A stretch of DNA of 38,449 nucleotides, taken from positions 1 through 38,449 of the forward strand of contig JBDKTA010000003.1 of assembly GCA_039680605.1 (NCBI GenBank), read 5' to 3'. Numbering within the stretch: position 1 is the first letter of the stretch; each line of letters begins with the position of its first letter. The notes beneath the pieces are model-generated. The model was not told the origin of the DNA and searched no databases. It worked only from the letters and a program-made list of their open reading frames with translations. The stretch comes from Planctomycetaceae bacterium. GTDB lineage: Bacteria > Planctomycetota > Phycisphaerae > SM23-33. A program made the translations under genes and the position numbers. Shown here one piece after another: positions 2,365-34,033 of the stretch.

Positions 2365-3813
2365 CTATCGCGGCGGGTCGCACAGGTACAGCCTCTGCCC
2401 CGGCGTTATCGTCAGGCCGGCTCCGACGCGCTGGGCCAGGGCCTCGGGACTGTCGGCGTACAGCGGCGAGATCTCGATCGCCGCGGCGACCTGTCCGTCG
2501 GCGTCGCGCGGGACGCTCACGCCGGCGGCCTCGAGCCACGCCGCCGCCCGCCGCACCTGGTCGTGCAGGCTGGTGGCGGGCGAGTCCAGGCCGGCGGCGT
2601 TCTTGATGGGGCTGAACTCCTCGCTACGGTCGGTTTCGAGAATCACCGTCTGGCGCGCCAGGGGCAGGGCGTCGAAAATGAACATCTCGAGCTTGACGGC
2701 GTTGGGGCGCTCGGGCTCGACGCGGCGGCCGCTCTCGTCCAGAAAGGGCACCTTCTTGTCCGCGCGGTGGAAGGGCAGCATCGTTCGCCCGCCGGCGGTC
2801 AGCCGCTCGACGAACGTGCGCGAGAAGGCGTGGATGGCGATGCTGCCGGCCCCGTAGAGCAGGCGCCCGTCGGGCGTGGTGGCGCGGGCCAGTTCGTCGG
2901 GCATGTCGGAATACTCGATCACGCTGACCTTGCCGTCGACGAGGCAGAAGTTGCCCACCTTCTCCATCGGATCGCGCTTGGGCAGGCTCTTGGCGCTGGC
3001 CTCGGCGCCGCGCAGGTGGTGCAGGCCCAGCAGCAGCGGGTCGATCACGCGCACCAGCGGATTGTCCACCTGGAAGTAACTGATCAACTCGATCCCGCGC
3101 CGCGCCATGTCGTCCAGCGCGCCGCTTTGGCGCAAGGCCGTCATCGCCCCGCCGTGACCGTTGGGGCTGGTCGCCAGGGCGTCGCGCTGCTCCAGCAGCA
3201 GCTTGCCCGCCGCCGGACCGCCGGGGCAGCCCAGGCTGATAGCGGGCATCGTGCCCTGAACCAGAAAGAACACATCGGCGCCATCGAGGCCGAAATGGTT
3301 CTGCTGGCGGAAGAACGCCCGAGTCGGCGCGTCGTTGAGCGGCGAGGTCATGATGTACCAGGGAATCGCCTTGCCGCTGCGCCGCGAGGCGGCCAGGATC
3401 TGCTCGGCGAACACCTGGAACAGCGGCTTGTTGGCCACGGGCGTGGCAGGCAGGCAGCCCTTGGGTCCGTCGAAGCCCAGGCGGGTTCCCTGCCCGCCGG
3501 CGACGACGAAGGCCGCCACCTTGCCCGCGTTGATGAGTTCCTGCCCGCGTTGGCGAGCAGTTTCGAGTTCGCCGGCGGTTTTGTCGTCGCGCGGCGAAAC
3601 GACCGTGGCGGGCTCGATCTTGCCCGCGACCTCGGCGGCGGGGCGCACCCGCACGTACTGGGCGATCAGGCGGTCGAGTTCGTCCAGGTCGATCTGCTCG
3701 ATCTGGCGCAGCAATGCCGATTGGCTTTCGGGCGGCAGATCCTTATAGAACTGCAGCACGTGCGACTGCCCATGCTGGGCCAGGGCGGCGGCGATGGCGT
3801 TGACGTCAGGCAT
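2365..3813 (-). CDS. UAP1-like UDP-N-acetylhexosamine / UDP-sugar pyrophosphorylase
   Basis: A 482-residue UDPGP-family nucleotidyltransferase that would make a UDP-sugar from UTP and a sugar 1-phosphate. The uridine-binding loop GGQGTRLG is at residues 106-113, followed by GPKG at 116-119. This is the arrangement of eukaryotic UDP-N-acetylglucosamine pyrophosphorylases (AGX/QRI1) rather than of bacterial GlmU or GalU. Later segments fit the same family: YFQVDNPLVRVIDP, VGNFCLVDGKVSVIEYSD and LEMFIFDALPLA. It is the first gene of a two-gene unit with NAD kinase. The exact substrate, GlcNAc-1-P or Glc-1-P, cannot be decided here. Confidence 0.85.
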   Translation of the reverse strand: MPDVNAIAAALAQHGQSHVLQFYKDLPPESQSALLRQIEQIDLDELDRLIAQYVRVRPAAEVAGKIEPATVVSPRDDKTAGELETARQRGQELINAGKVAAFVVAGGQGTRLGFDGPKGCLPATPVANKPLFQVFAEQILAASRRSGKAIPWYIMTSPLNDAPTRAFFRQQNHFGLDGADVFFLVQGTMPAISLGCPGGPAAGKLLLEQRDALATSPNGHGGAMTALRQSGALDDMARRGIELISYFQVDNPLVRVIDPLLLGLHHLRGAEASAKSLPKRDPMEKVGNFCLVDGKVSVIEYSDMPDELARATTPDGRLLYGAGSIAIHAFSRTFVERLTAGGRTMLPFHRADKKVPFLDESGRRVEPERPNAVKLEMFIFDALPLARQTVILETDRSEEFSPIKNAAGLDSPATSLHDQVRRAAAWLEAAGVSVPRDADGQVAAAIEISPLYADSPEALAQRVGAGLTITPGQRLYLCDPPR

Positions 3814-3925: not shown

Positions 3926-3976
3926 GTTAGCGGCGGGGCTTGCCCCGCGCGGTTTTTCGGGCGAGGGTAACTCGCC
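3926..3976. repeat. Hairpin repeat, GTTAGCGG family, with adjacent second hairpin
   Basis: GTTAGCGG, a 6-bp stem CGGGGC-TT-GCCCCG (3934-3947) and CGCGGTTTTTC (3948-3958) form a hairpin followed by a T-run. A second hairpin, GGCGAG/CTCGCC, follows at 3960-3976. The first unit recurs inverted, with the same stem, at 31507-31539 and with a different stem at 31567-31600. It looks like a terminator on the plus strand, but no plus-strand gene lies upstream. Confidence 0.7.
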
Positions 3977-4597: not shown

Positions 4598-5386
4598 ATG
4601 AAACGAAATGCGTTTACACTGGTTGAGCTGTTGGTGGTCATCGCGATCATCGCCGTGTTGGTGGCGATCCTGGTGCCCGTGATCGGCAACGCGTTGGCCG
4701 AGGCCCGCAAGACGGCCTGCCTGACCAACCTCAAGACCATCGGCGGAGCGTTCAGAGAGTATGCAACCAAGAACGGTGGACAGTTTGCCCGTGCCGCTGC
4801 CACTGGCGATTGCGGTGCGACGACCTACACGCAGGCCGCGACTGTCGATACGGTCTCGGTCACTCCGATGAACCAGGTCTGGAAGTTGATCGGCGCCGGC
4901 CTTGTCCCGGAAACCGCCTTCAAGTGCGGCGGCGACGGCAACTCGACAACCGGTTGGATTCAGCGGGTCGTTGCGCTGTCGACGGCCCCCTATGGTTGGG
5001 CCGACAAACGCAACTTCTCGTACGGCATTCAGTGCCCGTTTGACTCTGACGGCGCCGATACGAACAATGCCAACCCGGCTATCACCTATGATAGCGACAC
5101 CGCGACGCCGACGGCTCTGAAGCCCACTGGCGTGCTGATGGCCGACATGCTCACCCGTTCGGCGACCGCCGTGGTGACCAGTGCGGCTGGATACCAGAAC
5201 CACGGCAGTGGTCTGGCGTACCTGACGCAGGCCGGCAACGTGGTCTTCCACCAGCCCGCCACGCCGGATTCGGTGATCAACGGCGACGAGATCTATGCCA
5301 CCGCGGCAGCGACTCCCATTGTCGTGACCTCCGCGACCGTCACGCCGCCCGTCAGCAAAACCGACTGGGTGATTCTGGGCAACTGA
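4598..5386 (+). CDS. Type II secretion / type IV pilus-like pseudopilin
   Basis: A 262-residue protein with a class III (prepilin) signal. A short basic leader MKRNA is followed by [15 protein letters not shown], with the glutamate at mature position 5 required for pilin assembly. Cleavage is expected before Phe6 by prepilin peptidase. The first 30 residues form the membrane and assembly helix, and the rest would be extracytoplasmic. The middle contains NFSYGIQ, and the end has an [17 protein letters not shown] segment like the H-x-DG C-terminal region of planctomycete pseudopilins. GGAG lies 10 bases before the ATG. A strong terminator follows, so it is monocistronic. It is a paralogue of the next gene. 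No secretion machinery is in the window, so its partner apparatus is unknown. Confidence 0.85.
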
Positions 5387-10456: not shown

Positions 10457-11263
10457 AAAGGGGTCAGGTACCGTTTCTGCTTGACCTTCGATGGATTCGT
10501 GGTATCGTATGGGCCATGCCTCGCAGTCCTCGCGTCAACTTGGGCGGGTACGTCTATCATGTGCTCAACCGCTCCAACGGGCGGCAGACTTTGTTCCACG
10601 GCCAAGGCGATTACGAGTTATTCCTTGACGTGCTGGCGGCCGCACATGAGCGCGTGTCCATGCGCACCATCGGCTATTGCGTCATGCCCAATCACTGGCA
10701 CCTGGTGCTCTGGCCGCGCGAGGACGGCGACCTGTCGGCCTTCATGCAGTGGGTGACGCTCACGCACACCCAGCGCATGCATGCCCGCCGCGGCACGGCC
10801 GGGGCCGGGCACGTCTACCAGGGGCGGTTCAAGAGTTTTCTGATCGAGCAGACGCGGCCGCCGGCGGCGCAGCGGGCGATGGGCGTGCTCGAAGGCGGCG
10901 ACGCGGTGCTGTCGGTGCTGCGATATGTCGAGCGTAACGCCGTCAAGGCCGGTCTGGCGACGCGGGCGCAGGCGTGGCCGTGGGGCAGCGCCCACGCGCG
11001 GCTGGAGGCGGGGGAGGCCCTCGTGCCGCTGACGCCGCCGCCGGGCGGCCTGCCGGATGATTGGATCGACTGGGTGAACCGCCCGCACACGGACAAGGAA
11101 CTGGCGGCCCTGCAGCGGTGCATCGAACGGGGCGTCCCGTTCGGCCGCGAGGCGTGGGTCAAGCGGATGGCCGCAGAATGGGGCCTGGAAAGCACCCTCC
11201 GCCCCCGCGGTCGACCACGAAAGGCAGAAAAAGGTACCTGACCCCTTTAATCCTGACCCCTTT
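10457..11263 (+). mobile_element. RAYT-type transposase unit with inverted flanking repeats
   Basis: The single transposase gene is bracketed by AAAGGGGTCAGGTACC (10457-10472) and its exact complement GGTACCTGACCCCTTT (11233-11248). A further direct TGACCCCTTT lies at 11254-11263. The right repeat contains the transposase stop codon. This matches the usual arrangement of REP-associated tyrosine transposases next to short palindromic or inverted repeats. Confidence 0.7.
10516..11241 (+). CDS. REP-associated tyrosine transposase (Y1_Tnp, RAYT)
   Basis: A 241-residue HUH single-strand transposase. The first strand VYHVLNRSNGRQTLF is followed by the metal-binding His-hydrophobic-His motif HWH (residues 60-62) in GYCVMPNHWHLVLWP. 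GHVYQGRFKSF is at about 98-108. VLRYVERNAVKAGL contains the likely nucleophile Tyr137. About 15 extra residues (TRPPAAQRAMGVLEGG) lie between these last two blocks. Family members cut and rejoin short palindromic repeats. The stop codon lies inside the right inverted repeat. The C-terminus ends in a basic RPRGRPRKAEKGT stretch. The frame is intact, so it may be active. Confidence 0.88.
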   Translation: MPRSPRVNLGGYVYHVLNRSNGRQTLFHGQGDYELFLDVLAAAHERVSMRTIGYCVMPNHWHLVLWPREDGDLSAFMQWVTLTHTQRMHARRGTAGAGHVYQGRFKSFLIEQTRPPAAQRAMGVLEGGDAVLSVLRYVERNAVKAGLATRAQAWPWGSAHARLEAGEALVPLTPPPGGLPDDWIDWVNRPHTDKELAALQRCIERGVPFGREAWVKRMAAEWGLESTLRPRGRPRKAEKGT

Positions 11264-16776: not shown

Positions 16777-19089
16777 ATGATAGCCAATCGACGCGGTAAA
16801 AATCTTGCCATCTGGGGGCTGGTGATCAGCATCCTGCTGGCGGCCACCAGCGTGGCGACGTGGTTGCTGACGCGGTCGGCGTCCAGCGCGGCGCTGTTGT
16901 GGATGCTGCTGCCCCTGGCGCTGACGTGGGTCATCACGATCGTCCTCTTCTACGCCCGTCAGCTCGAGCGCCTCGAGGCGCACGAACTGGCGGCGCCGTC
17001 CCGCGGGGCAACGACGGCCACCATCTTCGACGGCGCCGATGAGTCGCAGGCGCGTCCGGCGGCGGCGCGCCTGGCGCGCATCGAGCGGTGGGTGGCGCCG
17101 ATCTTCACGCTGGCCATCGGGCTGAACCTGGGCATCAACGCCCTGATCTTCCTGCCCAGGCTGATGGGGGCCAAGCCCGTCGAGATCGCCAGCGAGGGCG
17201 CGGGCATGGTGCTGATGGGGATCGCCGCCTTCGGGGCGTTCCTCTTCAGCCGCTACTGCAGCGGTCTGGCGACGGTGGCCGACTGGCGCCCCCTGCGCGC
17301 CGGCGCGTCGCTGATGCTGGCGACGGTGCTGCTGATGCTCGCGTCGCTGGTGGGCATCTTCCTGTCGATGCACGAGATCGACACCGTCGACTGGGTGGTG
17401 GCCATCGTGATCGCGGCCGTCCAGTTGGTGCTCGGGGCCGAGATGCTGATCAGCCAGATCATGGACTTCTATCGCCCGCGCGTGGCGGGGCAGGAGCGGC
17501 GGTATTGTTTCGACTCGCGCCTGTGCGGGCTGCTGGCCGAGCCCCAGAAGGTCGGGCACTCGATTGCCGAGACGCTCAACTACCAGTTCGGTTTCGAGGT
17601 CAGCAAGACCTGGTTCTACCGCCTGCTGGCCAAGGCCATGATCCCGATGCTGATCTTCGGCGCCGTGGTGCTGATCGCCATGACGTCGATCGTCATCATG
17701 CCCGACGGGCAGCAGGGCGTGCTGCTGCGCTGGGGCCAGGCCGAACCCGGCCGGGCGCTGCTGGGTCCCGGGGCGCACCTCAAATGGCCCTGGCCGATGG
17801 AGACCGTCCGCCGGTTCGACATGGCCAAGGTCCACAGCATTTACCTGGGACTCAAAGGCGGCCAACCCGACACGACCGTGCCTGAAGACGTCGATCAGCA
17901 AAGCGGAAGGCGCATGCGCCTCTGGACGCAGGAGCACAAGCACTGGAACCGCGAGGAACGCAATTTCCTGCTGGCCTCGCGCAGCCAGCGGATCGAATCC
18001 GCCGCGGGCAAGGGCACCAAGGAACTTGCCCCCGTCGACATCTTCCGCCTGGTCACGCTGGTGCAATACAAGATCGACGACCCGTACAAGTACGGCTTCC
18101 GCTTCGCCGACGTGCAGAAGGTCATCGAAAACGTCGCCGAACGCGAAACCGCGCGCTACTGCGCCAGCGCCACGTTGACCAGCCCCGCCGACCTGCCCGA
18201 CCAGCCCGAGGCTATCCTCACCTACGGCAAGGCCAAGGCCGCCGAACAACTGATGAAGCGCATCCAGAGCGAGTTGAGCCGCCCGAGCACCGACGTGGGC
18301 GTGCGCGTCACAGCCGTGACGTTCGTGGCGGTGCATCCGGTGTCCGACGCCGCCGAGTCGTTCGAGAAGATCGTCCAGGCCTCGCACGAGGAAGCCGCCA
18401 TGCGTTTTAACGCCCAGGCCTGGGCCTACCAGGCCCTGTCGCGGGTGGCGGGCACGCCGGCCGCGGCGCTGGACCTGGCGCTGAAGATCCGCAAGCACGA
18501 GGAGCTTAGCGACATCTCCGGGCGCAGCGACGACCCCGCGCGGCGCCTGGAGCACCTGGATGGCCTGATCTTCAAAGTCAGCGACGACATCGCCGCCCAG
18601 GACAAGGAGATCGCCGCCGAGGCGCTGCTGGGCCAGGTGGAAGAATACAAGCTGACCCTGCGGGAAAACTACCGCGCGTACCTCAAGCTGCTGCAGTCCA
18701 TCCGCGCGTCGCTGGAGGGTCAAGGCCCGGCCGTGAACCTGGCGCCCGAGGTGGCGGCGGCGGGTCAAGAGGCCCAGAAAGCCATGGGCGAAGTCAGCGG
18801 CGAGGTGGCTGCCAGTCTGGCCCGGGCCAAGGCGACGCGCTGGCAGGTGGAGATGAGCGAGCGAAGCCGCCTGGCGATGTTCTATAAGGAACTGCCCGCC
18901 TTCCAGGCCAGCCCGAACATGTTCATGATGGACCGCTGGCAGGACATGCTCGACCGGACCCTTCCGGGGATGCTCAAGTACGTCATCGCGGTGGATCCCA
19001 ATCGGCTGGAGATCCGCCTCAACAGCGACCAGCAGAACGACGTGACCTCGCGCCTGCGCGACGCGCAGCAGGATGCCAATAAACCTTAA
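16777..19089 (+). CDS. SPFH/band-7 protein with N-terminal multi-span domain (HflK-like)
   Basis: A 770-residue protein and the first gene of the six-gene operon. The N-terminal 310 residues contain about seven membrane spans (near 10-30, 38-60, 108-128, 143-162, 175-200, 208-230 and 286-306). An SPFH domain begins at IVIMPDGQQGVLLRWGQAEP and includes GPGAHLKWPWPMETVRRFD and a DIFRLVTLVQYKIDDPYKY strand. A long C-terminal helical region follows. SPFH proteins form ring or cage assemblies at membranes, and HflK/HflC encloses FtsH. The usual HflK has one span, so the multi-span extension is unusual. GGAG lies 8 bases before the ATG at 16777. The overlapping ATG at 16773 is out of frame. FtsH is not in the window. 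Confidence 0.82.
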   Translation: MIANRRGKNLAIWGLVISILLAATSVATWLLTRSASSAALLWMLLPLALTWVITIVLFYARQLERLEAHELAAPSRGATTATIFDGADESQARPAAARLARIERWVAPIFTLAIGLNLGINALIFLPRLMGAKPVEIASEGAGMVLMGIAAFGAFLFSRYCSGLATVADWRPLRAGASLMLATVLLMLASLVGIFLSMHEIDTVDWVVAIVIAAVQLVLGAEMLISQIMDFYRPRVAGQERRYCFDSRLCGLLAEPQKVGHSIAETLNYQFGFEVSKTWFYRLLAKAMIPMLIFGAVVLIAMTSIVIMPDGQQGVLLRWGQAEPGRALLGPGAHLKWPWPMETVRRFDMAKVHSIYLGLKGGQPDTTVPEDVDQQSGRRMRLWTQEHKHWNREERNFLLASRSQRIESAAGKGTKELAPVDIFRLVTLVQYKIDDPYKYGFRFADVQKVIENVAERETARYCASATLTSPADLPDQPEAILTYGKAKAAEQLMKRIQSELSRPSTDVGVRVTAVTFVAVHPVSDAAESFEKIVQASHEEAAMRFNAQAWAYQALSRVAGTPAAALDLALKIRKHEELSDISGRSDDPARRLEHLDGLIFKVSDDIAAQDKEIAAEALLGQVEEYKLTLRENYRAYLKLLQSIRASLEGQGPAVNLAPEVAAAGQEAQKAMGEVSGEVAASLARAKATRWQVEMSERSRLAMFYKELPAFQASPNMFMMDRWQDMLDRTLPGMLKYVIAVDPNRLEIRLNSDQQNDVTSRLRDAQQDANKP

Positions 19090-19134
19090 CTGCGGACCAA
19101 CCTTCGCGAACCTGCAACGGTAAGGAATAGCAAG

Positions 19135-20091
19135 ATGCTCAAGCGAACCTCAATGATCCTCATCGGCCTGGCGATCGTGGCGTGCCTGATGCTTTGCACC
19201 ATCGCCTACACCGTCGACTACACCGAGTGGGCGATGGTGATGACCTTCGGGAAACCCTCGGCCCCGGTCAACGGGCGCACCGACGCGGGGCTGAAGTTCA
19301 AGCTTCCCGTGCCCTTCCAGACCGTCACCAAGTACCCCGCCACGATGCACACCCTCGAGGCCACCACCATCGAGACGCCCACCTCCGACAACCAGAACAT
19401 CGTCGTGACGACGTACTGTCTGTGGCGCATCAGCGACCCGGTCAAGTTCCTCCGCGCCATCTCCAAGGTCGAGCTGGCCCAGAACAAGCTGCGCGACTGG
19501 CTCAACAGCGACACCGACAAGGTCGTCAACCGCCACGCCCTGGGCGAGTTCGTCAACACCGACGGGCGAAAGATGCGCCTGCCCGAGATCGAAAAGGAAA
19601 TCCTCGACCGACTGGCCGAAAAGGCCCAGAACGACTACGGCGTCCAGATCGTCGCGGTGGGCATCAAGTCGCTGGCTTTGCCCGAAAAAGTCACCGAGGC
19701 GGTCATCAACAAGATGAAGCAGGAACGCGAAGCCGAGGCCCAGCGGCTGCGAAACCAGGGCGAAGCCACCGCCATGGCCATTCGCGAGCGGGCCGATTCC
19801 GCCGCCAGGATGATCGGCGAGTTTGCCAGGAAGAAGGCCGACTCCATCGAGTCCGAAGGCTATCGCGCCGCCAAGGACCTGTATCCCAAGTTCAAGGAAA
19901 ACGAGCAGTTCAGCATGTTCCTGCGAATGCTCAAGTCGATGGAGAAGGAACTGTCCGGACGTTCGGTCGTGCTGCTGGACGGCTCGCTGGTTCCGGGAAT
20001 CAAGTTCCTGAGCAGCGGTCCGTCGCTGCCGGAGCTTCCGCCCTCGCCGGTCCTTCCTGCCAAGACCGGCGTGGACAAGAACAAACCTTAA
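19135..20091 (+). CDS. SPFH/band-7 protein (HflC-like)
   Basis: A 318-residue protein, close to HflC length. One N-terminal span (MILIGLAIVACLMLCTIAY) is followed by the SPFH domain: EWAMVMTFGKPSAPVNGRTD, GLKFKLPVPFQTVTKYP, ETPTSDNQNIVVTTYCLWRI and the VGIKSLALPEKVTEAVINKM segment typical of HflC. A charged coiled coil follows (KQEREAEAQRLRNQGEATAM), and the C-terminus is Pro-rich. By analogy with HflC the bulk would face the outside of the inner membrane. It is the second operon gene, 45 bases after the first and 18 bases before the third. Of the three SPFH proteins this is the most HflC-like. Confidence 0.88.
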   Translation: MLKRTSMILIGLAIVACLMLCTIAYTVDYTEWAMVMTFGKPSAPVNGRTDAGLKFKLPVPFQTVTKYPATMHTLEATTIETPTSDNQNIVVTTYCLWRISDPVKFLRAISKVELAQNKLRDWLNSDTDKVVNRHALGEFVNTDGRKMRLPEIEKEILDRLAEKAQNDYGVQIVAVGIKSLALPEKVTEAVINKMKQEREAEAQRLRNQGEATAMAIRERADSAARMIGEFARKKADSIESEGYRAAKDLYPKFKENEQFSMFLRMLKSMEKELSGRSVVLLDGSLVPGIKFLSSGPSLPELPPSPVLPAKTGVDKNKP

Positions 20092-20109
20092 TTGCCAAGG
20101 ATCCCGGCT

Positions 20110-21708
20110 ATGCTCGGACACCATCACCATCATCATCACGACCATCACGACCACGACGGCCCGTGCCAGCACGAAGAGCCGGTCGATGTCGGGCAGCAGC
20201 ACCTGGCCGACGCGCTGCGGGTGTTTTTCTTCGTGCTGTCGATCGCCATGGCCTTTGTGGTGCTCTATTTCTTTTTCAGCGGAATCACGACGATCCACCC
20301 CGAGCACCGGGGCATCAAGAAGATCTTCGGCAAGGCCATCGAACCGGTGATCTCCGAGGGTCTGTCGATCACGTGGCCTTTCCCCATCGGCGAGATCGAG
20401 AAGGTCTCGATGCGCGAGGAGAAGGTCGAGATCGACAACGCGTTCTTTATCCGCGAAGACCCCGCCGAGGTCGGCCGACCGCTTTCCCAGCGGCGCGCCC
20501 GCAAGCCGGGGCTCGACCCGGCCATCGACGGGGCATTGCTCACCGGCGACCAGACCCTCCTCCACGCCCGCCTGACGTGCAAGTACGTCGTCGCCGACCC
20601 GATCGCCGTTCGGGCGGCCCTGCCGCTGGACCTGGCCGCGCCTGAACTGAGCAAACGCCAGGCCTTCGACCCCGACATTTTGCGAAACATCGTCTGCGCC
20701 GCCACGGTCAAGGCCATGGCCACGCGAACCGGAATGGGCTTCAAGGAGGACCGCGCCGGTCTGGAAAAACAGATCGCCGAAGACGTCCAGCGCCGCATGA
20801 ACGTGCTGACGGTCGACCGCGCCGAAGTCGCCCATCTCGTGGACCGGATCAAGGCCCTCACCCCCGGCCCCGAGGCCGCCAAGACCCTTGGGCAGGTGGT
20901 TGATCTGCTGATGCAGGGACGCGGCAACGAGACCGCCCCGCTCATCGAGACGCTGGTCAAGCAGTCCGGGCCCGCCGGCAAGAGCGTGGGCAGTCTGGCC
21001 GACAAACTGGCGGCCCTGTTCGACCACAAGGCGATCAAGATCACCAACGTCCTGACGTCGGAGATCTCCTGGCCGATCCGCACGCTGGACGCCTGGAACA
21101 ACGCCGCCAAGGCCGAAGACGAAGCGCGCCGCACGATCATCGAAGCGCAGGCGCAGGCCCAGAAGATGCTCACCGACGCGGCCGGAGCCAGCGCCGAGAA
21201 GCTCGTCGACGTCAGCGGCATCATTCAGCGGCCTCGAAGCGCCGCCGCCAGCCAGCCCGCCCAGCCGCCGCTGATCGACCAGTACATTGAGGCCCTGGAG
21301 GCCAAGGACAGCGCCCGGGCCGAGGACCTGCTCGAGCAGATCGACCGCGTCCTGGTCAGCAGCACCACCCGCGGCGAGGCCAGCCGCATCCTCCAGCGGG
21401 CCGCCGCGGCCCGCACCGCCATCGAAACCGACGTCAAGGCCCGCGTCACGGAGTTCGAGAACAAACTGGCCGGTTACAAGCTCTCTCCGGAACTGACGCT
21501 GCAACGTCTGTGGGCTCAGACCCGCGAGAAGGTCCTGGAGGGCAGCCAGACCATGAAGTTCTACGTGCCCGCCAGCGACCGCCCGCTGGTCCTCTACGTC
21601 AACACCCCCGACGACATCCGCCGCCAGCTTGACAAGGCCGCACGCGATGCCGCCGCCGAAGCGGCCAAGAACAAAATGAATGACCCCCGGCAGACGCCCG
21701 CTCCCTAA
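20110..21708 (+). CDS. SPFH/band-7 protein with histidine-rich N-terminus
   Basis: A 532-residue protein. I chose the ATG at 20110, preceded by AAGGAT. A TTG at 20092 in the same frame abuts the previous stop and is less likely. The N-terminus MLGHHHHHHHDHHDHDGPC is a natural metal-binding His/Asp tract, followed by one span (VFFFVLSIAMAFVVLYFFF). The SPFH domain starts at ITTIHPEHRGIKKIFGKA, with an insertion-rich middle and a later NVLTSEISWPIRTLDAWNNA strand. The C-terminus is a long charged coiled coil with an AEDEARRTIIEAQAQAQKML segment. It is the third gene of the operon. The His tract lies before the span, so on the cytoplasmic side if the topology follows HflK. Confidence 0.82.
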   Translation: MLGHHHHHHHDHHDHDGPCQHEEPVDVGQQHLADALRVFFFVLSIAMAFVVLYFFFSGITTIHPEHRGIKKIFGKAIEPVISEGLSITWPFPIGEIEKVSMREEKVEIDNAFFIREDPAEVGRPLSQRRARKPGLDPAIDGALLTGDQTLLHARLTCKYVVADPIAVRAALPLDLAAPELSKRQAFDPDILRNIVCAATVKAMATRTGMGFKEDRAGLEKQIAEDVQRRMNVLTVDRAEVAHLVDRIKALTPGPEAAKTLGQVVDLLMQGRGNETAPLIETLVKQSGPAGKSVGSLADKLAALFDHKAIKITNVLTSEISWPIRTLDAWNNAAKAEDEARRTIIEAQAQAQKMLTDAAGASAEKLVDVSGIIQRPRSAAASQPAQPPLIDQYIEALEAKDSARAEDLLEQIDRVLVSSTTRGEASRILQRAAAARTAIETDVKARVTEFENKLAGYKLSPELTLQRLWAQTREKVLEGSQTMKFYVPASDRPLVLYVNTPDDIRRQLDKAARDAAAEAAKNKMNDPRQTPAP

Positions 21709-30121: not shown

Positions 30122-31225
30122 ATGATCCGCGAACTGAAATACAAACCTGATTTCGGAAAGACCGTCGACCGCTTTGAGGCCTGGTGGCACCAGGAGATCA
30201 TCGATCGGCCACCGATCATGTGCGGCTGTCGCCGCGTGTACGAAGCGCCCCAACCGCCCAAGAAAACCTTCGCCTCCGACAAGGAGCGTTGGTTCGACGT
30301 GGAATATCACGTTGATTCCGCCACCGCAGGCCTGGAAGGTCTCGAGTTCTTCGGTGACTCGTACCCGCTTTTCTGGCCGAACATGGGCCCAGAGATCGCG
30401 GCCGTGCCTTTCGGCGTTGACGTGCAGTTCGGCGACTGGACGACCTGGTCGATCCCGGTTGTGAAAAAGCCCGAGGACTGGCAGACGATCATCGACAAGC
30501 CGCTGGATTTCGAGAACCCCATCTGGAAGGCCATGGAGCGGATGGCCGACTACGCCATTAAGGTTTCCGACGGCAAGTTCGTCGTGGGCATCACCGACCT
30601 GCACGGCAACTACGACATTCTCGCGGCGTTGCGCGACCCGCAGCACCTGTGCATGGACTTGATCGACTGCCCGGAGCTGCTGGACAAGGCCTGCGAGAAG
30701 GCCGTCGCGTGTTACCTGGAATGTTTCGACCGCTGCTGGGCCCGCAGCAAGGCCGCCGGCTACGGCTCGGCCACCTGGTGCCCGGCGTATCACGAAGGGC
30801 GCGGGTATATCCCAAGCTGCGACTTCTGGTGCATGACCTCGCTGGAGATGGGCAAGGAGCGGATCTGGCCGTTCGTCGAGAAAGAAATCAAGGCCCTGTC
30901 GCGCAGCCATTTCCACCTGGACGGGCCCAACGCCCTGAAGTTCCTGGACCTGCTGCTGGAATGCCCTGAGCTCAACAGCGTGCAGTGGGTCTACGGCGCC
31001 GGCAACGGCCCGGGCAGCAAGTGGATGGACGTCTACCGCCGCATCCACGCGGCCGGCAAGAGCATGGAGCTCTGGGCCGACAGCCCCAAGCAGTGCCTGG
31101 AGCTGATCGAAGAGTTTGGCCCGGAGGGCCTGTGGCTGAGCACCGGCGGCTTCGACAGCAAGGAATCCGCCGACGCCTTCCTGAAAGACGCCGAAAAAGT
31201 CTCCGCCAAGCACCGCCGCAAGTAA
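30122..31225 (+). CDS. Uroporphyrinogen decarboxylase-fold protein 2
   Basis: A 367-residue URO-D superfamily protein, diverged from its neighbour at 28953. It opens with an RFEAWWHQEIIDRPPIMCG segment seen in planctomycete URO-D-like proteins. A SRSHFHLDGPNALKFLDLLL block again has H-x-D-G where corrinoid methyltransferases have H-x-C-G. The end reads EEFGPEGLWLSTGGFDSKES. It has no signal peptide. The ATG at 30122 follows a short gap containing the hairpin repeat, and no strong ribosome site is visible. The C-terminal coding sequence EKVSAKHRRK has a second diverged copy downstream (31337-31372). Function is unknown beyond the fold. Confidence 0.8.
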   Translation: MIRELKYKPDFGKTVDRFEAWWHQEIIDRPPIMCGCRRVYEAPQPPKKTFASDKERWFDVEYHVDSATAGLEGLEFFGDSYPLFWPNMGPEIAAVPFGVDVQFGDWTTWSIPVVKKPEDWQTIIDKPLDFENPIWKAMERMADYAIKVSDGKFVVGITDLHGNYDILAALRDPQHLCMDLIDCPELLDKACEKAVACYLECFDRCWARSKAAGYGSATWCPAYHEGRGYIPSCDFWCMTSLEMGKERIWPFVEKEIKALSRSHFHLDGPNALKFLDLLLECPELNSVQWVYGAGNGPGSKWMDVYRRIHAAGKSMELWADSPKQCLELIEEFGPEGLWLSTGGFDSKESADAFLKDAEKVSAKHRRK

Positions 31226-31226
31226 A

Positions 31227-31333
31227 GGGACGTTTACCGCTTTCATCTGCCTGCCAGAAGCTTGGCTTTGACCGGCCGTCAAATGGTGGGTTACGGTTGG
31301 ACTTCGCAAGGCCGCGAAAGCGGTAAGCGTCCC
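31227..31333. mobile_element. 107-base MITE-like element with 18-base terminal inverted repeats
   Basis: The left end GGGACGTTTACCGCTTTC (31227-31244) and right end GAAAGCGGTAAGCGTCCC (31316-31333) are complementary at 17 of 18 positions. It begins 2 bases after the stop of the URO-D gene. It has no coding capacity and no clear target duplication. Confidence 0.6.
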
Positions 31334-31336
31334 AAC

Positions 31337-31372
31337 GCAGATAAAATCTCCGCCAAGTACCGGCGCAAATGA
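31337..31372 (+). pseudogene. Remnant of a URO-D paralogue C-terminus
   Basis: This 36-base stretch translates to ADKISAKYRRK and a TGA stop. It closely matches the intact gene's ending, AEKVSAKHRRK and TAA at 31190-31225. Most differences are synonymous or conservative, so it looks like the tail of a once-coding paralogue whose remainder has been deleted. Confidence 0.6.
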
Positions 31373-31399
31373 CGCGTCAGGGAAAGAACGGGGAGTGCG

Positions 31400-31440
31400 G
31401 GATTAAGGGGATTGAGAGGATTAAGAGGATTAAGAGGGGA
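31400..31440. repeat. GATTAAGAG simple repeat
   Basis: Four or five imperfect units of GGATTAAGAG/GGATTGAGAG. No complementary arm was found nearby. Confidence 0.6.
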
Positions 31441-31506
31441 GTGTTGGCGGGCCAGCTCTTGTCTGGCGCAGAGCGAAGACGGATGCTCGACGGGTTGTTC
31501 GGGTCT

Positions 31507-31600
31507 GAAAAACCGCGCGGGGCAAGCCCCGCCGCTAACATTGCTCGCCCGCGTCACATTGTGCACGTTAGCGGTCGAACTTGTTCGACGCGGTTGTTTC
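31507..31600. repeat. Cruciform-forming pair of hairpin elements
   Basis: Two GTTAGCGG-family hairpins face each other. The left copy, inverted, has the stem CGGGGC-AA-GCCCCG (31518-31531). The right copy has TCGAAC-TT-GTTCGA (31575-31588). Their flanks also pair: CCGCTAAC (31532-31539) with GTTAGCGG (31567-31574), and GAAAAACCGCG (31507-31517) with CGCGGTTGTTTC (31589-31600). This gives a four-way junction. Confidence 0.7.
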
Positions 31601-31651
31601 CCCCAAGAAATGCGCCGCAAAGTTTTAGGCGCCGCATCTTCTTCCAGCGTC

Positions 31652-31930: not shown

Positions 31931-32059
31931 AGGTAACGATATTCAACTTCAGATCGTTCTTCATGTCCAGCCTGCAGGTACCGGCGGCCTTACGGGCATC
32001 ACGGTGGGTTGAACCTATATCGTTGTTTCTTCCGAATTGGCCAACCGTGGAGCCCGCAA

Positions 32060-34033
32060 ATGCCAAAAACATTCCTCTTTGCCGTCTTGATCGTCCTATC
32101 CGTCTCGTGCCTCTGCGCGACGGCTGCCGAAATCCATGTTGCGCCCGACGGTAATGACGCCAACGACGGTTCCAAGGCCAAGCCGCTGGCCAGCGTCACC
32201 GCTGCGCGCGATGCGGTGCGCAAGCTTGTGGCCGCGGGGCTGACCGAAGACGTCAAGGTGCTTATCGCGCCGGGGCGGTATTACTTGCCGCAAGGGCTGG
32301 TGCTTGGCCCGCAGGACAGCGGCAGCGAGAAGTTCAGCATCACCTACGCCGGTGTGGGCGAGAAGGCCCCGGTGCTCATTGGTGGGCGCAAGGTCACAGG
32401 CTTCAACAATATGCCGGATGCCATCCAGGTCATGCCGCCTCTGCCGCAGGCCGCCGGGAATAACGTCTACAAAGGGTCGCTAGGGGGAGCCACCAAGAGC
32501 TTGGTCGCACAGGAAGACGGCGTGCGCCTGACGCTGGCGCGAGAACCCAACACGGGCTATGCCCGCGCTAGTGGCGGACGCGGCACGAGCATCAGCTACG
32601 GCGGCGATACGTACAAGATGCTCGCCGGCGGCAAGTTTCCCGACGCTGTGGTGGCTGTCTGGCCGGATTGGGGTTGGGACTGCCGGGTTACGGGCCTGGC
32701 CTCGGCCGGAGTGGGGCAAGTCGCGTTGACCAAGGATGTCGGGACGATCAAACGGAACAACCGCTTCTACGTGATGAATGCCGTGCCGTTGCTGGACAGC
32801 CCCGGTGAGTGCGTGATGGATACAACCAGCGGGCGCATGTACGTCTGGCCGACGAAGGGCACGGCCGAGGGCAAGCTGTACGAGATCGCCACGGCTGACA
32901 ATGTCGTGCTGATCAAGGGCGGCAAGGACAAGCCCGTGCGCAACGTGCACTTCGCGAACCTGGACATGATGCTCGCCAACGCAGACGGCGTGTTCATCGC
33001 CGACGCTCAGGACTGCTCGATTCGCGGCTGTCTGATTGAGAATACCTGGGAGCGCGGCGTGTGGGTCAAGGGCGTCAACCGCGGCGTTATGATCGCCGAT
33101 TGCGAGATCCGCAACGTCGGACGCGACTGCGTGGGCCTGACGGGCGAGGGCATGACGGCGACGGAGGTCAGCACGGCCAACGTCGTCGAGAACTGCCACC
33201 TGCACCACGGCGGCGTGATTTTCACGCAGGGGGCGGGCGTGCAGATCTATTTCAGCGGGCACAACCGCGTCGAGCACAACCACATTCACGACTTCGCCCG
33301 CTACGCGGTGTCGGTCAAGGCGTTCTCGACGCGCAAGACCAAGCGGCGCGACTACGACAAGCTGCACGCGCGAAACAACACCATCGCCTACAACCACATG
33401 CACCACGTCTGCCAGGACAGCGACGACTGCGGGGCCATCGAGAGCTGGGGCCCGGGCAAGAGCAACGTGTACGATCACAATCTCATCCACGACAGCGGCG
33501 CCGGCGGGCTGCAGTTCGGCATTTATCTCGACGACGCCACCGATGACTCGACCGTCAGCAACAACGTGATCTATGGCGTCAAGGGCGGGCGGTTCTCGGC
33601 CGTCATCTGCGCCAAGGGCATCGGCAACCGCATCGTCAATAACGTGCTGGTCAGCGCCGGCGTGCAGGCGGTGCTGCGCAGCAAGGCATCGGTTTCGTCG
33701 CACGACCAGGTCATCACGCACAACATCTTTTACATTGATGCCGGCTCGGCCGTCTTCGACCTTTACGACTGGAATTCCAACCGCTTCAAGACCTGCGACA
33801 ACAACGTGTACTTCAATCCCAAGGGCGGGCTGAGGAACATCGGCAAGGGCCCGGGCTTCGGGGCGGTCAAAGGCGCCAACAGCATCGAGGCAGACCCGCT
33901 ATTCACCGACGCGGCCGCGCGCGATTACAGTCTCAAGAGCGATTCGCCGGCGCTGAAGATCGGGATCAAATCCATCGACCTGCGCAATGTCGGTTTGACA
34001 GAGAAGTTTCCGAAACGGCTCGCACGGCAGTAG
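32060..34033 (+). CDS. Secreted right-handed parallel beta-helix protein
   Basis: A 657-residue exported protein. I chose the ATG at 32060, with GGAG 8 bases upstream. It starts a clear signal peptide (FLFAVLIVLSVSCLCATAAE). The mature N-terminus IHVAPDGNDANDGSKAKPLA and ITYAGVGEKAPVLIGGRKV match the opening of beta-helix carbohydrate enzymes such as GH141-like and polysaccharide-lyase-like proteins. A long run of short strands with repeated N-x-I/V and H-x-H patterns follows (VENCHLHHGGVIFTQGAGV, NRVEHNHIHDFARYAV, NNTIAYNHMHHVCQD), as expected for parallel beta-helix coils. A glycan target is likely from the fold and context. The activity is not shown by sequence. Confidence 0.85.
   Translation: MPKTFLFAVLIVLSVSCLCATAAEIHVAPDGNDANDGSKAKPLASVTAARDAVRKLVAAGLTEDVKVLIAPGRYYLPQGLVLGPQDSGSEKFSITYAGVGEKAPVLIGGRKVTGFNNMPDAIQVMPPLPQAAGNNVYKGSLGGATKSLVAQEDGVRLTLAREPNTGYARASGGRGTSISYGGDTYKMLAGGKFPDAVVAVWPDWGWDCRVTGLASAGVGQVALTKDVGTIKRNNRFYVMNAVPLLDSPGECVMDTTSGRMYVWPTKGTAEGKLYEIATADNVVLIKGGKDKPVRNVHFANLDMMLANADGVFIADAQDCSIRGCLIENTWERGVWVKGVNRGVMIADCEIRNVGRDCVGLTGEGMTATEVSTANVVENCHLHHGGVIFTQGAGVQIYFSGHNRVEHNHIHDFARYAVSVKAFSTRKTKRRDYDKLHARNNTIAYNHMHHVCQDSDDCGAIESWGPGKSNVYDHNLIHDSGAGGLQFGIYLDDATDDSTVSNNVIYGVKGGRFSAVICAKGIGNRIVNNVLVSAGVQAVLRSKASVSSHDQVITHNIFYIDAGSAVFDLYDWNSNRFKTCDNNVYFNPKGGLRNIGKGPGFGAVKGANSIEADPLFTDAAARDYSLKSDSPALKIGIKSIDLRNVGLTEKFPKRLARQ

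Follow-up and report, generated by a model that had tools for sequence, protein, structure and literature searches.

Several described systems come close to the element analyzed here. GTAG-tagged REPs, as presented in PMC3733652, are palindromes of 20-40 bp with an unpaired foot and with subfamilies that have alternative complementary stems; they are mostly extragenic, occur as inverted dimers, among which heterodimers are often preferred, and have cognate RAYTs. The present family resembles them in these traits and differs in its foot, which is GTAG in those REPs and TTAG here (usually GTTAG; TTTAG in relatives). The comparison covered the main text of that paper, from which the word TTAG is absent; feet other than GTAG are on record in published REP families, such as CGTC (PMC3733652) and CnGA (PMC6006769). 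REPINs of Pseudomonas fluorescens SBW25 (PMC3116915) likewise consist of two inverted REPs with a short spacer, single REPs being remnants, and their cognate RAYT is encoded elsewhere, whereas the RAYT clade concerned was not found in the genome studied here. SBW25 GI REPINs are symmetric, in contrast with most pairs of the present family, which are heterotypic, and this shifts the computed balance toward the clover form. In that same work, Bertels and Rainey proposed that RAYTs cannot see a stable long hairpin, and that it is the less stable clover which a RAYT dimer recognises (PMC3116915); Di Nocera et al. reported the heterodimer preference of REPs without an obvious explanation, and protection from SbcCD was suggested (PMC3733652).

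The BIMEs of E. coli (Y and Z REPs, TnpA-REP) share with our pairs the heterotypic inverted arrangement, the bulged hairpin and a single-strand HUH-type transposase, and differ in having a foot other than TTAG; GTAG is essential for E. coli TnpA-REP, substitutions not being tolerated (PMC8266576). The RAYT clade described below has W-A/G-x3-W-K-V, as against WQ or WE in other TnpA-REP subclasses (PMC6006769). TnpA-Y1 of class 3 and subclass 2.6 (Quentin et al., 2018; PMC6006769) are similar in that RAYT-like genes are flanked by non-GTAG hairpins. Class 3, which is mainly found in Planctomycetes and Acidobacteria, has repeats with CnGA as their foot and a Y-motif whose last residue is Q (PMC6006769), whereas the clade considered here has YVxxNP, as in class 2.

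REPs, REPINs, stem subfamilies, heterodimers and RAYTs are already known, and the family amounts to a variation on REP/REPIN elements rather than a novel type of system. Relative to the main texts of the cited papers, three things are new: the foot TTAG, the RAYT clade associated with it, and a CG/TC pair code that recurs. The element is very probably a pair from a REP/REPIN family of non-autonomous hairpins of about 29 nt, usually arranged in inverted pairs of about 74 bp, with a RAYT clade as its putative recognising partner and a presumed role for the stem swap.

The inverted pair and its units

The window (the whole stretch of DNA analyzed, 38,449 nt) contains the following features of the family:

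31511-31539, minus strand: REP unit of stem class CG (CGGGGC/GCCCCG), from direct reading and model R1 (51.8 bits)
31540-31566, no strand: spacer of 27 nt between the two feet, in a tags-inside pair, the rarer orientation
31567-31595, plus strand: REP unit of stem class TC (TCGAAC/GTTCGA), from direct reading, the genome family and compensatory variants
31507-31600, no strand: whole inverted pair, from the single-stranded DNA fold of 31505-31601
3926-3954, plus strand: single REP unit of stem class CG (CGGGGC/GCCCCG), from direct reading and model R1

Direct reading confirmed what the initial annotation had described, namely three units with shared flanks GTTAGCGG and CGCGGTT and fully paired CGGGGC/GCCCCG or TCGAAC/GTTCGA stems, the third unit (3926-3954, plus strand) having the first stem. 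The unit at 31511-31539 reads GTTAGCGG-CGGGGC-TT-GCCCCG-CGCGGTT on the minus strand, with the GTTAG foot at the minus-strand 5' end, and the facing one at 31567-31595 reads GTTAGCGG-TCGAAC-TT-GTTCGA-CGCGGTT on the plus strand, also with a GTTAG foot; its stem is a compensated variant of TCGAGC/GCTCGA. The pair lies in the gap between two predicted plus-strand genes (30122-31225 and 32009-34033), the second of which corresponds to a beta-helix protein, and the single unit is situated between two divergent genes, one of the UDPGP family (2365-3813, minus strand) and one that carries an N-terminal methylation motif (4598-5386, plus strand).

The four-way junction claimed for the pair agreed with the predicted fold of 31505-31601 (97 nt) as single-stranded DNA, a four-armed form of -25.7 kcal/mol (z -3.53) that none of 200 shuffles equalled. 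The pair displays outer arms AAAACCGCG / CGCGGTTGTTT and inner arms CCGCTAAC / GTTAGCGG, plus two side hairpins. The claim required one correction, since every 29-nt unit forms a bulged hairpin of its own (C6-G26, G7-C25, bulged G24, G8-C23, then six stem pairs), with GTTAG unpaired at the foot, a short loop and a tail after the hairpin. As in REPs, the hairpin stands directly at the foot and its stem is maintained by compensation; the foot is (G/T)TTAG instead of the unpaired GTAG/GTGG of REPs, with which it shares TAG, its first base being T.

Other features were observed in the same region. The stretch AAGCGGTAAGCGTCCCAAC at 31319-31337, about 170 bp from the pair, resembles AAGTGGTAAGCGTCCCAACTT, the terminal repeat at the flanks of a different RAYT, L036, from this genome. 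Positions 31399-31436, immediately upstream of the pair, hold short direct repeats, imperfect in sequence, of GGATTAAG(A/G)GG, and a similar stretch, taagaggattgaaga, precedes a family copy at C50:5399. An Rfam scan of the window gave no match for the family unit; the single hit was a group II intron (RF00029, 53 bits) at 45-124 on the plus strand, near the contig start.

Copy number and genomic position

The genome searched comprised 5.23 Mb in 72 contigs and was 95.4% complete. Exact-flank copies (flank, stem and flank) amounted to 82 genome-wide vs. 0 for a reversed-pattern control, and copies with up to two mismatches to 194 vs. 30; model R1, a covariance model based on 65 distinct cores, gave at least 150 matches. 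The family has about 150-200 short hairpin repeats in this genome, and its unit length of 29 nt, its copy number (at least 150) and its mostly extragenic location are those of REPs. Flanks by themselves were as frequent in the window as expected by chance. When all sites were collected genome-wide, as the initial annotation had advised, copies were numerous and nearly all stems were paired; neither of the outcomes it had named as contrary, copies with unpaired stems or the presence of the first copies only, was encountered.

In the 1.15 Mb of genome examined closely, 157 copies were found, 138 of them intergenic as compared with 21% of random placements, with genes called by a simple in-house program; of the 19 "genic" copies, the majority touch a predicted gene end. 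Location mostly between genes, together with GC-rich hairpins and the T-containing tail (GGTTGTTT) after them, could point to intrinsic (rho-independent) terminators converged on one sequence. Convergent gaps, however, were not enriched (23% of placed copies vs. 25% of random intergenic positions), 21 copies, that at 3926 among them, were placed in divergent gaps, and no strand bias was found, single copies between tandem genes being oriented 11 with transcription and 11 against it. The lack of a convergent-gap excess and of strand bias indicates that these are not ordinary terminators. Moreover, the 29-nt core is fixed, foot included, unlike in terminators, and a uniform T-run after the hairpin is absent; we consider such an origin highly improbable.

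The exact pattern, searched in 60 relatives, gave nothing beyond chance-level matches, and a covariance model was needed to detect the families of these genomes. Related families with other stems showed a patchy distribution across the class. A search for empty sites by joining the flanks yielded no clean empty site at the loci examined; apart from self-hits, the joined flanks had weak matches (65-80% identity), several of them being REP-bearing paralogues.

Host-protein binding sites or structural RNA elements, kept by site-wise selection and not spread by a RAYT, could also account for compensatory changes that preserve pairing, across genomes too, and for a family that is an orphan in this assembly. 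Such host-protein-binding or structural roles have been ascribed to E. coli REPs. Near-identical copies in unrelated flanks, genome-specific stems and the patchy distribution fit repeat spread better, however, and the same cores adjoin RAYT genes in relatives, so that we find this explanation improbable. Copies of a spreading REP/REPIN family may have a secondary host role alongside.

RAYT genes in relatives and in this genome

Other genomes that the model reached yielded seven RAYTs of a single kind with (G/T)TTAGC hairpins alongside (L189, L192, L197, L198, L204, L215, and L218), four of them by a strict fold rule and three (L192, L197, and L204) by eye. The motif YGFWLPNDPRGSW is found wherever the N-terminus is present (WLPNDPRGSW clade), and the clade forms one branch (support 100/99); a text search of the literature for LPNDPRG retrieved no paper. 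In the relative G095, the two ends of a clade RAYT (C5:97063-97647) are each accompanied, at distances of 9 and 21 nt, by a REP whose core is exactly CGGGGCTTGCCCCG, the same as the hairpin core of the window. In a wider set, under a strict perfect-stem rule, TTAG hairpins were present within 400 bp of 14 of the 22 clade members, the remaining eight failing the rule, vs. 2 of 22 for GTAG; the background of the TTAG rule was 17.5% of random stretches in the locus pool, a value that is inflated because the pool contains REP-rich loci. The clade was carried by 6 of 8 genomes that had at least five R1 hits vs. 16 of 91 others (n = 99; Fisher P = 0.0014), and one genome with 23 R1 hits (G069) gave no match to the clade profile.

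Fifteen Y1-transposase matches were obtained in the genome of the window, and inspection of their flanks revealed a GTTAG unit beside none of them. The recognisable flanking repeats of other Y1 transposases belong to other families (GGTGCCACGCACAGC, AAGTTGGGACGCTTACC, the GRDAHAT type, and the GCCGCTTGCGG type). A search with L204 in this 95.4%-complete genome retrieved no clade RAYT, only a sister group (33-39% identical) that forms a separate clade (support 99/97) and whose flanks carry other hairpins. The family is therefore an orphan here, or the gene lies in an assembly gap. The link with a RAYT that had been suspected from the window thus holds for relatives, where TTAG hairpins adjoin clade RAYTs and where, as in REPINs, a cognate RAYT has the same REPs beside it (G095 C5), but such a RAYT was not found in this assembly.

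Two candidates were discarded. The RAYT of the window (10516-11241), considered as a partner of these hairpins, is flanked by its own unrelated AAAGGGGTCAGGTACC terminal repeats, and the hairpins are absent from its flanks. An IS200/IS605 insertion sequence was rejected as well, as no TnpA of its own lies between the hairpins and the spacers are just 9-60 or 23-110 nt.

Several RAYT loci of this genome are described here for their own sake. The RAYT at 10516-11241 is of a terminal-inverted-repeat kind (TIRYT-like), with AAAGGGGTCAGGTACC / GGTACCTGACCCCTTT repeats near 10458 and 11233; its paralogue L039 bears comparable terminal repeats, and at the ends of two contigs L043 and L044 appear to be additional fragments of this type. 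L041 (1050-2420, contig C39) is a RAYT bordered on either side by paired GGTGCCACGCACA...TGTGCGTG hairpins; these form a distinct, second REP family, one that apparently does have its partner in this genome. L040 (847-2481, minus strand; contig C4, about 18785-20419) is an open frame of 545 aa in which an electron-transfer-flavoprotein domain (PF01012) appears in two stretches; the in-frame interruption between them consists of a RAYT (PF01797) together with REP-encoded peptides of the GRDAHAT type, so that an entire RAYT apparently lies inside a housekeeping gene whose frame is still open.

Under the REP/REPIN reading, a RAYT of the clade, as a single-strand HUH-type tyrosine transposase, would most probably act on single-stranded DNA, where it would recognise the TTAG foot along with the bulged hairpin, and would cut and join REPIN strands, thereby copying or moving the pair. 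TnpA-REP proteins of E. coli and Stenotrophomonas cut and join other REPs in vitro (PMC8266576). In the present genome the enzyme may have been lost or may lie in an assembly gap, or another RAYT may act in trans.

Stem covariation, pair heterotypy and fold balance

Three main stem classes, each with its complement, were distinguished (CGGGGC, CGGAGC, and TCGAGC); with so few classes, there are few independent events. Within the genome, 96.2% of pairing cells were paired vs. 84.6% with shuffled partners, two-sided changes affected four of eight pairs (columns 9-22, 10-21, 12-19, and 13-18), and sliding the partners abolished the covariation signal. Rare variants compensate as well, the exact-flank copies presenting six compensated vs. 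eight one-sided changes. For other genomes, with other stems, the proportion was 93.5% vs. 79.7% with shuffling, with two-sided changes at six pairs, in an alignment fitted to the covariance model, which leans toward pairing. This shows that pairing is kept, whether through selection, RAYT recognition or template-switch correction between arms. Covarying stems had initially been taken to denote either selection on structure or a mobile hairpin family; a dispersed family with interchangeable covarying stems is indeed present and its pairing is maintained.

The 48 close pairs comprised 43 with tags outside and tails facing, four with tags inside, the pair of the window included, and one in the same direction. 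Thus, the usual unit is a REPIN of about 74 bp, and the head-to-head junction, although present at 31507-31600, is a minority type. Within 60 bp there were 43 tags-outside, three tags-inside and no same-direction pairs, an arrangement proper to REPIN doublets. Spacers fell mainly into two clusters, 14-17 and 26-28 nt, with ranges between paired units of 9-60 nt (tags outside) and 23-110 nt (tags inside).

None of the 43 tags-outside pairs had identical cores, and in 38 of them the longest uninterrupted match between the two cores was at most 12 nt. Over the three stem classes, 35 of the 43 were heterotypic as compared with 28.6 expected (P = 0.02), and CG-vs-TC pairs numbered 26 vs. 19.8 expected (P = 0.035). 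Intact pairs were 0/8 among homotypic and 15/35 among heterotypic ones (P = 0.036; P = 0.002 for divergence). These P values, on the whole modest, come uncorrected from several looks at one data set. The CG to TC change, affecting the two pairs that adjoin G8-C23, also separates the halves of RAYT-adjacent pairs in three other genomes (L192 in G095; L226 and L228 in G093; L306 in G034). Stem TCGAGC is also present in G061: every one of the nine inverted pairs examined there beyond the RAYT locus is heterotypic, and in six cases one half is TCGAGC. Heterotypy is not universal, since the bulk REPINs of G095 and the pairs beside the G061 RAYT are homotypic.

Matched stem changes could alternatively have arisen by template switching between arms during replication, without selection on structure. 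This quasi-palindrome correction is known for imperfect palindromes, and a single event would yield both changes together, as in TCGAACTTGTTCGA. It accounts for single matched changes but not for the heterotypy of pairs, and leaves the recurrence of CG/TC beside RAYTs of other genomes unaccounted for; we regard it as a possible, rather doubtful, explanation of the stem changes, and one that can operate together with the REP/REPIN explanation.

Fold energies were computed with a nearest-neighbour model that compares two chosen structures, proteins and tertiary effects being outside it. With one fixed spacer, homotypic pairs favoured a single long hairpin over the clover by 21 kcal/mol, the TCGAGC/CGGGGC pair favoured the clover by 3 kcal/mol, and the TCGAGC/CGGAGC pair favoured the long form by 7 kcal/mol. 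In natural pairs the clover was favoured in 14 of 26 CG-TC pairs vs. 0 of 13 others, natural CG-TC pairs being near energy balance. Within this model, the CG/TC swap appears to remove the long-hairpin preference and to make the two-hairpin clover competitive, which suggests that different but matched stems would stop the pair from collapsing into one long hairpin. Heterotypic stems, one half CG and the other TC, would keep the two hairpins separately folded because the long hairpin is then mismatched; a long hairpin would bury both recognition hairpins and form a long palindrome. On these computed energies, the swap would fit both the clover-recognition (PMC3116915) and the SbcCD-protection (PMC3733652) ideas.

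We tentatively propose, as a conjecture we hold with little confidence, that CG/TC serves a TTAG-footed REPIN superfamily as a conserved code for left and right, which prevents annealing between hairpins: heterotypic pairs would stay in the clover form, processable by WLPNDPRGSW RAYTs and escaping hairpin nucleases, and homotypic pairs would be inert.

The family ties the heterodimer preference left unexplained by Di Nocera et al. to the untried clover proposal of Bertels and Rainey, because the natural stem swap shifts the computed balance from long hairpin to clover; the tie also rests on the recurrence of the swap beside RAYT genes elsewhere and on the absence of intact homotypic pairs here. 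A RAYT clade and its TTAG foot are now named and can be tested biochemically, and the known range of foot sequences is widened. If true, a left/right CG/TC code would explain the long-noted preference of REPs for heterodimers.
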